Shown piece by piece: positions 1,416 through 54,160 of a DNA stretch of 54,160 nucleotides (the first letter of the stretch is position 1; every line of letters begins with the position of its first letter). Position numbers and translations under genes: made by a program. The DNA is from Zetaproteobacteria bacterium CG_4_9_14_3_um_filter_54_145. GTDB taxonomy: Bacteria > Pseudomonadota > Zetaproteobacteria > Mariprofundales > Mariprofundaceae. The stretch is taken from positions 1-54,160 of the forward strand of contig PFXI01000083.1 of NCBI GenBank assembly GCA_002791575.1, written 5' to 3'. The notes beneath the pieces were generated by a model. That model worked only from the letters and a program-made list of their open reading frames with translations. It was not told where the DNA came from and made no database searches.

Positions 1416-1497
1416 AAAACATCGGAAAGCCGTGTACGGGAAAACCGTATGCACGGTTTGATGAGGGAGGGCAGGGAGATCTGCTCTCTACTCTACC
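1416..1497 (+). ncRNA. Group II intron 3' ribozyme end (domains V-VI)
   Basis: Directly after the maturase stop lies a hairpin beginning AGCCGTGTACGGGAAAACC and closing with GCACGGTTT (1428-1459). This is the conserved domain V with its AGC catalytic triad and GAAA-type tip. A second stem (about 1466-1490) with arms near AGGGAGA and GCTCTCT is the likely domain VI, ending near CTCTAC. The 3' splice site is estimated at about 1496. The 5' half of the intron is missing. Confidence 0.75.
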
Positions 1498-24752: not shown

Positions 24753-24932
24753 TCAGGCTGAAGCGGGAATTGCAGCGGCACCGCCTTCCAGACGCTCTTC
24801 CCTGTTTACCTGTACTTCTCGCGGCGCTTCAATGCCAATGCGAACCTGTCCGCCTTTTACATTCAGTACCTGAATCTGGATGTTATCCCCGATCGCGATG
24901 GATTCACCTTTTTTGCGTGTCAAAATAAGCAT
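24753..24932 (-). CDS. csrA: Carbon storage regulator CsrA
   Basis: 59-residue global post-transcriptional regulator that binds GGA motifs in mRNA leaders. The protein begins [20 protein letters not shown] and contains [17 protein letters not shown], the strongly conserved RNA-binding strand and Arg44-equivalent region. Only the last few residues ([12 protein letters not shown]) vary. Start at ATG 24932, with GGGAGA close upstream; that GGA could itself be a CsrA autoregulation site. The gene follows lysC at 58 bp, a common arrangement in proteobacteria. A perfect palindrome TATCTTCGAAGATA sits in the gap at 24962-24975. Confidence 0.95.
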
Positions 24933-52247: not shown

Positions 52248-52895
52248 ATGAGTGTATTGGTTGGCAAACAAGCCCCTGATTTTACCGCTGCAGCAGTAAT
52301 GGCAGATGGTTCTATTAATGAAGAATTTACACTGTCCGATTATGACGGACAGTATGTTGTACTATTTTTCTACCCGCTGGATTTCACCTTCGTATGCCCG
52401 TCGGAGTTGATCGCATTCGACCACCGTATCAAGGAATTTGAAGCGCGTGGCGTTCAGGTGATCGGCTGCTCGGTTGATTCCCAGTTCACACACGCCGCAT
52501 GGCGCAACACGCCTGTAAATGCAGGTGGTATCGGTCCTGTTGCTTATCCGCTGGTTGCTGATCTGACCAAGACGATCGCTGCCGATTACGATGTGCTGAT
52601 CGATAACGACGGTATCCAGGATGAAGACGGCGATATGGTTCACCTGCTGGGTGGCTCGATTGCCCTGCGTGGTTCATTCCTGATTGACCGCGATGGTACT
52701 GTGCAGCATCAGGTGGTGAACAATCTGCCACTGGGTCGCAATATCGATGAAATGCTGCGCATGATTGACGCGTTGAAGTTTACCGAAGAGCACGGCGAAG
52801 TATGTCCTGCCGGCTGGAACAAGGGTGAGAAGGGCATGGTTGCCGATGCAGCCGGTGTTGCTTCCTACCTGGCAACCGAGGCCGACAAGCTTTAA
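52248..52895 (+). CDS. Typical 2-Cys peroxiredoxin (AhpC/Prx1 type)
   Basis: 215 residues. The peroxidatic Cys lies in PLDFTFVCPSELIAFDHR, the resolving Cys in EEHGEVCPAGWNKGEKGM. VIGCSVDSQFTHAAWRN and GSIALRGSFLIDRDGTVQHQ are also typical. An electron donor (thioredoxin or AhpF) is not nearby. AAGGAGAG precedes the ATG, and a UUCG-type terminator follows at 52921. A single-gene unit, probably highly expressed. Confidence 0.93.
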   Translation: MSVLVGKQAPDFTAAAVMADGSINEEFTLSDYDGQYVVLFFYPLDFTFVCPSELIAFDHRIKEFEARGVQVIGCSVDSQFTHAAWRNTPVNAGGIGPVAYPLVADLTKTIAADYDVLIDNDGIQDEDGDMVHLLGGSIALRGSFLIDRDGTVQHQVVNNLPLGRNIDEMLRMIDALKFTEEHGEVCPAGWNKGEKGMVADAAGVASYLATEADKL

Positions 52896-52920
52896 TTCGC
52901 AAGCTTTGCATGGTTGATAG

Positions 52921-52948
52921 AGCGGTCCTTCGGGGCCGCTTTTTTTTG
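52921..52948 (+). terminator. Terminator after the peroxiredoxin gene
   Basis: AGCGGTCC-TTCG-GGGCCGCT followed by eight T; strong hairpin. Confidence 0.92.
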
Positions 52949-52963
52949 TGCGTGTAATTGCCA

Positions 52964-53005
52964 TTGCCTTATGCTGAACTCATGTTTATCTTTCGCCGCC
53001 CGAAC
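52964..53005 (+). promoter_or_regulatory. tRNA-Ser promoter with GC-rich discriminator
   Basis: -35 TTGCCT (52964-52969), 17-base spacer, -10 TATCTT (52987-52992), then TCGCCGCCCGAAC. The CGCCGCC discriminator is shared with the promoters at 36800 and 48920. Confidence 0.6.
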
Positions 53006-53038
53006 AAAGGCATCAGGCCTGTGTTTGGTTAATAAAAC

Positions 53039-53126
<88 letters not shown>

Positions 53127-53149
53127 TTTATTTTAGTTTCACAACGTAT

Positions 53150-53239
53150 GGAGAGATGGCTGAGTGGCCGAAAGCGCGCCCCTGCTAAGGGTGTATAGGC
53201 GAAAACCTATCGAGGGTTCGAATCCCTCTCTCTCCGCCA
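53150..53239 (+). tRNA. tRNA-Ser (GCT)
   Basis: Acceptor GGAGAGA/TCTCTCC, anticodon loop CTGCTAA within CGCCC/GGGTG gives GCT, with a long variable arm. CCA is encoded. Followed at once by a terminator. Confidence 0.95.
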
Positions 53240-53243
53240 TACA

Positions 53244-53278
53244 ATAAAAAAGCGCGCCTTATGGTGCGCTTTTTTATT
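53244..53278 (+). terminator. Terminator after tRNA-Ser (GCT)
   Basis: AATAAAAAAGCGC pairs with GCGCTTTTTTATT around a short loop, giving a bidirectional terminator. A second nearly identical hairpin stands at about 53405-53434 as part of a direct repeat. Confidence 0.9.
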
Positions 53279-53469
53279 GTACGGCTGAAGAGGTGCGATG
53301 CTATTCCTGTGGTTCGACAAAATCGCAGGAGCGATTTTGAACATCACGAAGTGATGGCCCCGCAGGGGCGAGGGCTAGGACGGCCCGAGTAATCCTTTTA
53401 TTTGAAAGCGCGCCTTTATGGTGCGCTTTTTTATTGTATGGCTGAAGAGGTGCGATGCTATTCCTGTGG
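53249..53469. repeat. 64-bp direct repeat flanking a four-hairpin array
   Basis: 53249-53312 and 53405-53469 are the same sequence with one substitution and one inserted T. Each holds a terminator hairpin and the tail GCTGAAGAGGTGCGATGCTA followed by TTCCTGTGG. Between them lie four hairpins in a row: CAAAATCGC-AGGA-GCGATTTTG (53318-53339), CATCAC-GAA-GTGATG (53342-53356), GCCCC-GCA-GGGGC (53357-53369), and a weaker GGGC/GCCC stem (53372-53386). No gene is seen in 53240-53567. Confidence 0.8.
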
Positions 53470-53567
53470 GTTCATGTCGCACATCCATGTGATTCGGGGC
53501 ATCCAAGCCCCTCAAGCTTTTATACTAATAGCGCCATAAGTCTGAACGGCGACTTTCGGCTGCCACT

Positions 53568-54095
53568 TCAACCGGTCGACGCAACACATGCATTAAATCT
53601 CTCTGCTGGTGTTTCAAAATTCAAGGTCTGCCTTGGCCGCTGATTGAGCCGTCTGGCGATCATGTCCAGATGCGCCTGCGAATGAACTGATAAGTCGGTT
53701 CCTTTAGGGAAATACTGGCGCAGCAATCTGTTGGTGTTTTCATTGGAACCGCGTTGCCAGGGACTGCTCGGATCACAGAAATATACTTTGATATCAGTTG
53801 CCAGCGTAAAACGCTTATGGTCTGACAGCTCCTTGCCCCGATCCCATGTCAGGGATTGATATACCTCATCAGGCAATTTTTTGGCGTGCTGGATCAATGC
53901 ATCAATAACCGTTTCTGTTTTTCGATCAGCAACCTTGATCAGCATGACATAGCGCGTATATCTCTCCACGAGAGTGGCGATATAACTGTTGTTGGAGCCA
54001 GCAATCAGGTCACCTTCCCAGTGCCCGGGGAGTGCCCGATCTTCAACGGAGGCAGGACGATCACGGATGGATGCGTATTCCGGTGAAGTCGGCAC
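53568..54095 (-). CDS. IS30-family transposase, C-terminal part (truncated)
   Basis: Carries the DDE integrase core of IS30 transposases: [20 protein letters not shown] (first Asp), [36 protein letters not shown] (second Asp), and the Glu helix with [20 protein letters not shown]. The C-terminus [19 protein letters not shown] is intact. The N-terminal helix-turn-helix half, roughly 150 residues, is missing. Bases from 54072 outward are the IS terminus, so the first eight codons, MPTSPEYA, are foreign. The catalytic residues remain but the protein is not functional as an IS30 transposase. Confidence 0.9.
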
Positions 54096-54160
54096 CTGAT
54101 TCCAGTCGAACGCGACACCCTATTCCGGTGAAGTCGACACCCCCTTTGGGAGCCTGTTGC
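54072..54160. mobile_element. IS21-like insertion sequence terminus (right contig end)
   Basis: Exact reverse complement of 9-97, reading TGCGTATTCCGGTGAAGTCG from the inner edge. It holds the same paired motif. It interrupts the IS30 transposase, so the same IS is present at least twice in this genome in opposite orientation relative to this contig. Confidence 0.6.

Follow-up and report, generated by a model that had tools for sequence, protein, structure and literature searches.

A conserved four-hairpin element behind a tRNA-Ser gene of a Zetaproteobacterium is a probable relative of tRNA-linked repeats

Results

The locus behind tRNA-Ser(GCU)

The window analysed here is the whole 54,160-nucleotide contig PFXI01000083.1 of Zetaproteobacteria bacterium CG_4_9_14_3_um_filter_54_145, a marine iron oxidiser. 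Towards its 3' end, a tRNA-Ser(UGA) gene lies upstream of tRNA-Ser(GCU), and a first terminator stem starts directly after the end of the latter gene. A core of four hairpins and a second terminator follow (Table 1). Further small hairpins stand 3' of the second flanking block, which by eye resemble a stretch further along an array in the sister genome G003, and then an ORF with an rve integrase-core domain close to the contig end. A 21-nt motif occurs twice beside this ORF, and a group II intron match is found at the other end of the window.

Table 1. Positions of the tRNA genes, repeat parts and other features in the window
Feature	Position	Strand	Evidence
Group II intron match	1425..1496	+	Rfam RF00029, 55 bits
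csrA	24753..24932	-	Pfam PF02599, 83 bits
tRNA-Ser(UGA)	53039..53126	+	ARAGORN, Rfam RF00005
tRNA-Ser(GCU), host RNA gene of the repeat	53150..53239	+	ARAGORN, Rfam RF00005
Terminator T1: 19-bp stem, 4-nt loop, T-run inside the stem	53240..53281	+	fold, direct repeat
Direct repeat, copy 1 (64 nt)	53249..53312
5' arm of the window unit	53282..53309	+	weak likeness to reverse complement of tRNA 3' end (score 7)
Conserved core: T-loop-like TGGTTCGA, four hairpins, ..CGAGTAATCC	53310..53395	+	model R1, DNA match
Hairpin 1, loop AGGA (53327-53330)	53318..53339	+	fold, covariation
Hairpin 2, loop GAA	53342..53356	+	fold
Hairpin 3, loop GCA	53357..53369	+	fold
Hairpin 4, loop AGGAC (53377-53381)	53372..53386	+	fold, covariation
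Site of the duplicated tRNA 3' end in sibling copies; TTTTATTTG here instead, copy lost	53396..53404	+	score 5
Terminator T2, within second copy of the block	53405..53430	+	direct repeat; terminator scan 53404-53430
Direct repeat, copy 2 (65 nt)	53405..53469
Beginning of a decayed second unit, with the repeated spacer followed by small hairpins (..GGGGCATCCAAGCCCC)	53431..53511	+	sequence
ORF with rve integrase-core domain	53568..54095	-
21-nt motif TATTCCGGTGAAGTCGRCACC, present twice, near contig end	54076..54141

A single substitution and an indel of one base separate the two direct repeats, in agreement with the sequence-only reading, which had described near-identical, terminator-containing flanks of 64 bp. 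The longest exact repeat within 52800-54160 is 30 nt, compared with at most 14 nt in 200 shuffles. Each flanking block contains a terminator, and folding together with the terminator scan gives two terminator stems at the element; the intrinsic-terminator scan reported the one in copy 2 and not the one in copy 1, the T-run of which sits inside its stem. A promoter scan of the window unit found no promoter-like site. The four back-to-back stem-loops that the same reading had placed between the flanks were recovered by folding at 53318-53386. The 92-nt hairpin block folds with a z-score of -4.3 and the wider stretch 53240-53480 with -8.5, none of 200 shuffles being equally stable in either case.

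Spread of the element and its position behind tRNA genes

A first DNA search covered 100 genomes, the own genome and 99 others, and returned copies in congeners and in other genera of the same family; the window core matched genome G017 with E=6.5e-24. Among 20 copy regions that were fetched, 19 contained a tRNA gene, in most cases immediately 5' of the repeat and on its strand. A covariance model, R1, was then built from 17 units including the window copy, which as one of the training rows scores 87.7 bits over model positions 1-85. With R1, the own genome yielded 19 matches at E≤1 (ten with E<1e-5), and within the family 46 of 74 genomes were matched at E≤0.01. Across the phylum, 80 of 299 drawn genomes were matched (46 of the same family, 2 of the same order and 32 beyond). 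The hairpin array, which the sequence-only reading had proposed to seek elsewhere, therefore recurs both in the own genome and in relatives. A private single-copy feature was rejected: the DNA search had given one own copy (E≤0.001), yet R1 finds 19 (E≤1).

The window core starts 70 nt behind tRNA-Ser(GCU). For the position of the family copies, 94 listed matches with E<1e-9 were considered, 85 of which have at least 150 nt upstream. A same-strand tRNA ends 48-98 nt before the core in 50 of the 85 and lies within 450 nt upstream in 63 (22 have none there); an opposite-strand tRNA was the nearest other neighbour within 450 nt in 0 of 85. The host tRNAs of these copies are Ser, Asp and Gln. Outside the family, 36 matches were available, 33 with sufficient upstream length: 11 stand behind a tRNA, one of the 33 has an opposite-strand tRNA nearby, and 22 follow no tRNA within 450 nt. 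Two further matches outside the family lie behind 5S rRNA (L113 and L114).

We also searched with a pattern of the hairpin 1 stem that holds no tRNA information. It matched 105 named-genome stretches; the 80 that were examined contain 89 matches, 85 of them with upstream length. Among these listed matches, 70 of 85 follow a same-strand tRNA at a distance of at most 450 nt, the tRNAs representing 16 anticodons, and in none of the 85 was the nearest tRNA on the opposite strand. Named hosts among the matches listed include Pectobacterium, Brenneria, Serratia, Alteromonas, Kangiella, Rhodanobacter and Mariprofundus. The element thus recurs behind tRNAs across the family and in named Gamma- and Zetaproteobacteria.

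Copies and forms of other kinds were seen as well. In the own genome, core copies away from any tRNA (L066, L069-L071 and L073-L075) occur, some of them in runs with a short spacer ..GAATCACAA. Other proteobacteria carry the core pattern in intergenic stretches that have no tRNA (L115, L116, L123 and L190, in genomes G148 and G129); as each of these two genomes holds several near-identical copies, a REP-like offshoot may exist. Inverted or nested forms are present in some arrays, and a related hairpin block stands inverted, with CATCC loops on the plus strand, inside the tandem arrays L042 (G003), L056 (G018) and L058 (G022).

A conserved and covarying structure

In a 17-row MAFFT alignment, 97.9% of the cells pair, compared with 28-44% when the partners are slid, and 55 cells carry double changes, compared with 15.2 in shuffles. 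Hairpin 1 shows both-side changes in seven of its eight pairs in this alignment. Double-change cells number 415 against 83 in shuffles for 117 own-family rows, and 317 against 85 for 105 rows from named genomes, counts that lean towards R1 because these rows were fitted to the model, as those of the 17-row alignment were not. The 105 rows come from 76 of the 80 named loci, the four titled Zetaproteobacteria or Mariprofundus being excluded. The four-hairpin core is a conserved, strongly covarying structure.

T-loop boundaries and the complete unit

TTCGA precedes the core and ATCC follows it, each being one half of a tRNA T-loop. In nine loci (L204, L223, L231, L235, L253, L256, L264, L269 and L271), the left half lies in a longer tRNA copy that is interrupted at this point, and an intact copy of the same tRNA follows shortly downstream; eight of the nine are among the 15 named-genome matches that had been counted as lacking an upstream tRNA. 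The joined flanks of L204, L223, L235, L269 and L271 are read as a tRNA by ARAGORN. In L269, L256 and L231, the intact tRNA copy is followed by another unit. A spliced tRNA intron was considered and rejected: with an intact tRNA close downstream in all nine loci, splicing is not needed.

The core (..TAATCC) is often followed directly by the host tRNA's 3'-terminal sequence. An exact copy of at least 15 nt was found in 23 of 62 units, 51 of which are of the own family. Among the listed matches in named genomes, 37 of 57 units have at least 15 nt and 41 have at least 12 nt, compared with at least 12 nt in 16 of 2978 control pairings with hosts of other anticodons. The arm upstream of the core resembles the reverse complement of the same host tRNA end. 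In both sets of units, none of 1000 permutations was as high for the 3'-end copy or reached the observed sum for the arm, results that are not probabilities because neither tandem copies nor related genomes are independent samples. Compared by anticodon, the own host beats all others in 12 of 16 for the 3' copy and in 9 of 16 for the arm, so that the arm signal, although real, is uneven. In many single folds, pairing between the arm and the 3' copy closes the hairpins.

In the window, the core and both terminators are present; the tRNA 3' copy is absent, TTTTATTTG standing in its place, and the arm is weak. This copy thus lacks the terminal 18-19 bp in which tRNA-linked repeats (TLRs), according to PMC8144298, repeat exactly the 3' end of the RNA gene before them. 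Having lost the tRNA 3' copy and retaining only a weak arm, it may be decaying, and we regard it as one unit of a tandem array that has partly decayed.

The Ser-GCU site in congeners

Ser-GCU loci were compared in 17 congeners, as classed by the search tool (18 loci, two in G004); the element was matched in 11 genomes and not in six (L305, L306, L307, L308, L311 and L314). In G003, the same tRNA is followed by the same order of terminator, hairpins and second terminator, with 95% identity to the window over the tRNA and first block and 78% over 211 nt. The G003 array has three same-strand units and one inverted unit. The sequence-only reading had looked to empty sites with a single 64-bp block: occupied and empty sites do both exist, but by eye the six empty ones show no single block, the block being absent altogether. 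Its emphasis on the duplicated flanks and the neighbouring tRNA was well placed. The 64-bp flanks are best read as the trailer and terminator part of a tandem repeat unit.

A recent IS or phage insertion was rejected, with no phage record at E≤1e-5, one weak match at E≤1, and the same order in G003. A plasmid-borne element was likewise rejected, the search giving three weak partial matches only (E 0.2-0.7). Nothing was found that ties the hairpin element to the rve-domain ORF, the putative IS30 remnant of the sequence-only reading.

Relation to tRNA-linked repeats

TLRs have been known since 1978, and the 2021 description introduces them as having no known function and counts 22 in E. coli K-12 (PMC8144298). 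In E. coli, R1 recovers each of the three RtT RNAs annotated at one locus, with 45.1, 41.0 and 40.6 bits, and, in an rrn operon, the element that lies between 5S-T1 and T2, with 64.0 bits (E=1.5e-15). As a model built from the family alone finds both RtT and an RrB-type RNA, which share a homologous structured core with it, the window element is a divergent TLR. A relative of it is the stretch between the rrn terminators T1 and T2, with R1 scores of 60-64 bits (L113 and L114; L353 in E. coli). Rfam does not place it as a plain RtT, a membership that we rejected: against RF00391, the window scores 21.5 bits (E=0.15), below the curated cut-off of 45. Sibling loci reach 41.3 (L061), 36.1 (L057), 34.5 (L044) and 32.3 bits (L054), that of L061 being the best own-family score among the loci scanned. 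The best match of an sRNA family over the window core is AaHKsRNA22 (RF02902; 30.9 bits, E=0.001), also below its cut-off (39.8).

A close likeness exists to RrA, RrB and RrF of E. coli rrnA, rrnB and rrnD. These RNAs have the four-hairpin core with GGA in loops 1 and 4 and occupy the same place, between two terminators (T1 and T2) behind a stable-RNA gene. They differ from the window element in their host, which is 5S rRNA instead of tRNA-Ser, and in carrying a duplicated 3' end of the host RNA, which the window copy lacks. RtT of E. coli tyrT-tyrV has the layout seen in the family (an arm resembling the reverse complement, GGTTCGA, hairpins, TAATCC and the tRNA 3' end), whereas GGA is nearly absent from its loops 1 and 4. 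The conservation of RrB is described within Enterobacteriales (PMC8144298), and RtT relatives beside tRNA genes of a Pasteurellaceae species are reported to give Northern signals (PMC4986893).

GGA loops and CsrA

Loops 1 and 4 of the window element carry GGA, as the hairpin loops of CsrA-binding RNAs do. Among the 117 own-family rows, GGA is present in loop 1 of 88 and loop 4 of 102, compared with 23 for loop 2 and 2 for loop 3; the corresponding counts in the 105 named rows are 95, 93, 15 and 11. Loops 1 and 4 exceed shuffled loop letters by a factor of 2.5 to 4.2; GGA in loops 2 and 3 stays close to this background or falls under it. Distinct enterobacterial rows of the RtT type have GGA in loop 1 in 2 of 32 and in loop 4 in 0 of 32. 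GGA loops as a trait of the whole family were accordingly rejected, and CsrA binding would not be universal in it.

The genome encodes csrA twice, once in the window and once on contig C86. The window copy adjoins an ORF that by eye reads like an aspartate kinase.

According to PMC8144298, RrA, RrB and RrF are made by read-through of T1 and bind CsrA and Hfq, RrB doing so with CsrA through GGA motifs, and the remaining 19 K-12 TLRs have CsrA prediction scores below 0.01. Loss and overproduction of RrB in E. coli are reported there to have shifted CsrA phenotypes only modestly and both in the same direction. Sponges of the CsrB/CsrC type share with the window element GGA motifs in hairpin loops; CsrB has about 18 and CsrC nine motifs according to PMC8144298, compared with two GGA loops per unit here. 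From their sequence, the hairpin loops of the element suggest a fit to a CsrA sponge.

Discussion

The comparison shows a covarying four-hairpin core behind a stable-RNA gene, lying between two copies of the predicted terminator of that gene. We consider it probable, at about 0.68, that the block descends from a divergent TLR, that its RNA is a by-product of tRNA-Ser transcription whose GGA loops bind CsrA, and that the flanks are tandem-unit copies. A minority of tRNA-Ser transcripts would read through T1, and the hairpin RNA would arise as a 3' by-product ending at T2. CsrA may bind to the GGA loops of hairpins 1 and 4, and the amount of free CsrA would thereby be adjusted to how fast tRNA is made, as has been proposed for E. 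coli RrB. The 64-bp repeats would be copies of the unit trailer and terminator, kept by tandem duplication and recombination between units, and not the scar of a recent insertion.

The sequence-only reading had proposed such a scar, left by an insertion that duplicated its target, or else a recombination product. Near-identical flanks and the absence of the element from some congeners would fit a recent insertion with a 64-bp target duplication, but this origin is very improbable: the flanks are copies of a tandem unit and occur in the sister species too, where G003 repeats the terminator-hairpins-terminator order, the structure recurs behind many tRNAs, the duplicated flanks of other copies vary in length down to little beyond the tRNA 3' end, and the empty sites hold no single block. 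A small non-autonomous DNA element, or an att-like scar, might target the T-loop or 3' end of tRNAs and duplicate its target, the hairpins serving mobilisation or being mere palindromes and the RNA being incidental. One core stands behind tRNAs of 16 anticodons among the matches listed, occupies the orthologous Ser-GCU site in 11 of 17 genomes and is missing from it in six, is bounded by TTCGA and ATCC with an interrupted tRNA and an intact downstream copy in nine loci, exists in inverted and nested copies, and in the own genome also lies away from tRNAs. We nevertheless hold this explanation unlikely, as the unit is short and noncoding with no linked recombinase seen, no phage record matches at E≤1e-5 (one weakly at E≤1), compensatory changes conserve the hairpins, and a mere palindrome leaves unexplained why GGA is enriched in two of the four loops.

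The block might instead be a fail-safe termination or 3'-processing module that stops read-through from a strong tRNA promoter and makes no trans-acting RNA. Two strong terminator stems would suit such a role, and the duplicated tRNA 3' end of the siblings could be a processing site, as PMC8144298 suggests for RrB. This account is quite unlikely, however; it explains neither the GGA enrichment in loops 1 and 4 nor the covariation of four specific hairpins, and by eye some units (e.g. L313 and L304) have no terminator between tRNA and core.

Extending the preferred reading, that of a divergent TLR with CsrA-binding loops, to all its relatives is more tentative. Gamma- and Zetaproteobacterial TLRs might together be a single ancient RNA module. 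It would enter (duplicated) tRNA genes at the T-loop, form its closing stem anew as a reverse complement of the 3' end of each new host, and serve as a distributed CsrA sponge through which the Csr network is coupled to the synthesis of tRNA and rRNA. In E. coli, where the family was defined, the tRNA-linked copies would then be exceptions that lost their CsrA loops. In the open-licence literature searched, the spread beyond Enterobacterales, the T-loop position and the conserved GGA loops are unreported.

A relative of the window element is carried by the rrnB T1-T2 cassette of E. coli, which is common on plasmids according to PMC8144298. The T-loop position and the host-matched arms offer a clue to how one repeat comes to stand behind many tRNA genes, and with GGA enriched in tRNA-linked copies of many bacteria, the idea of a CsrA sponge becomes testable well beyond E. 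coli.
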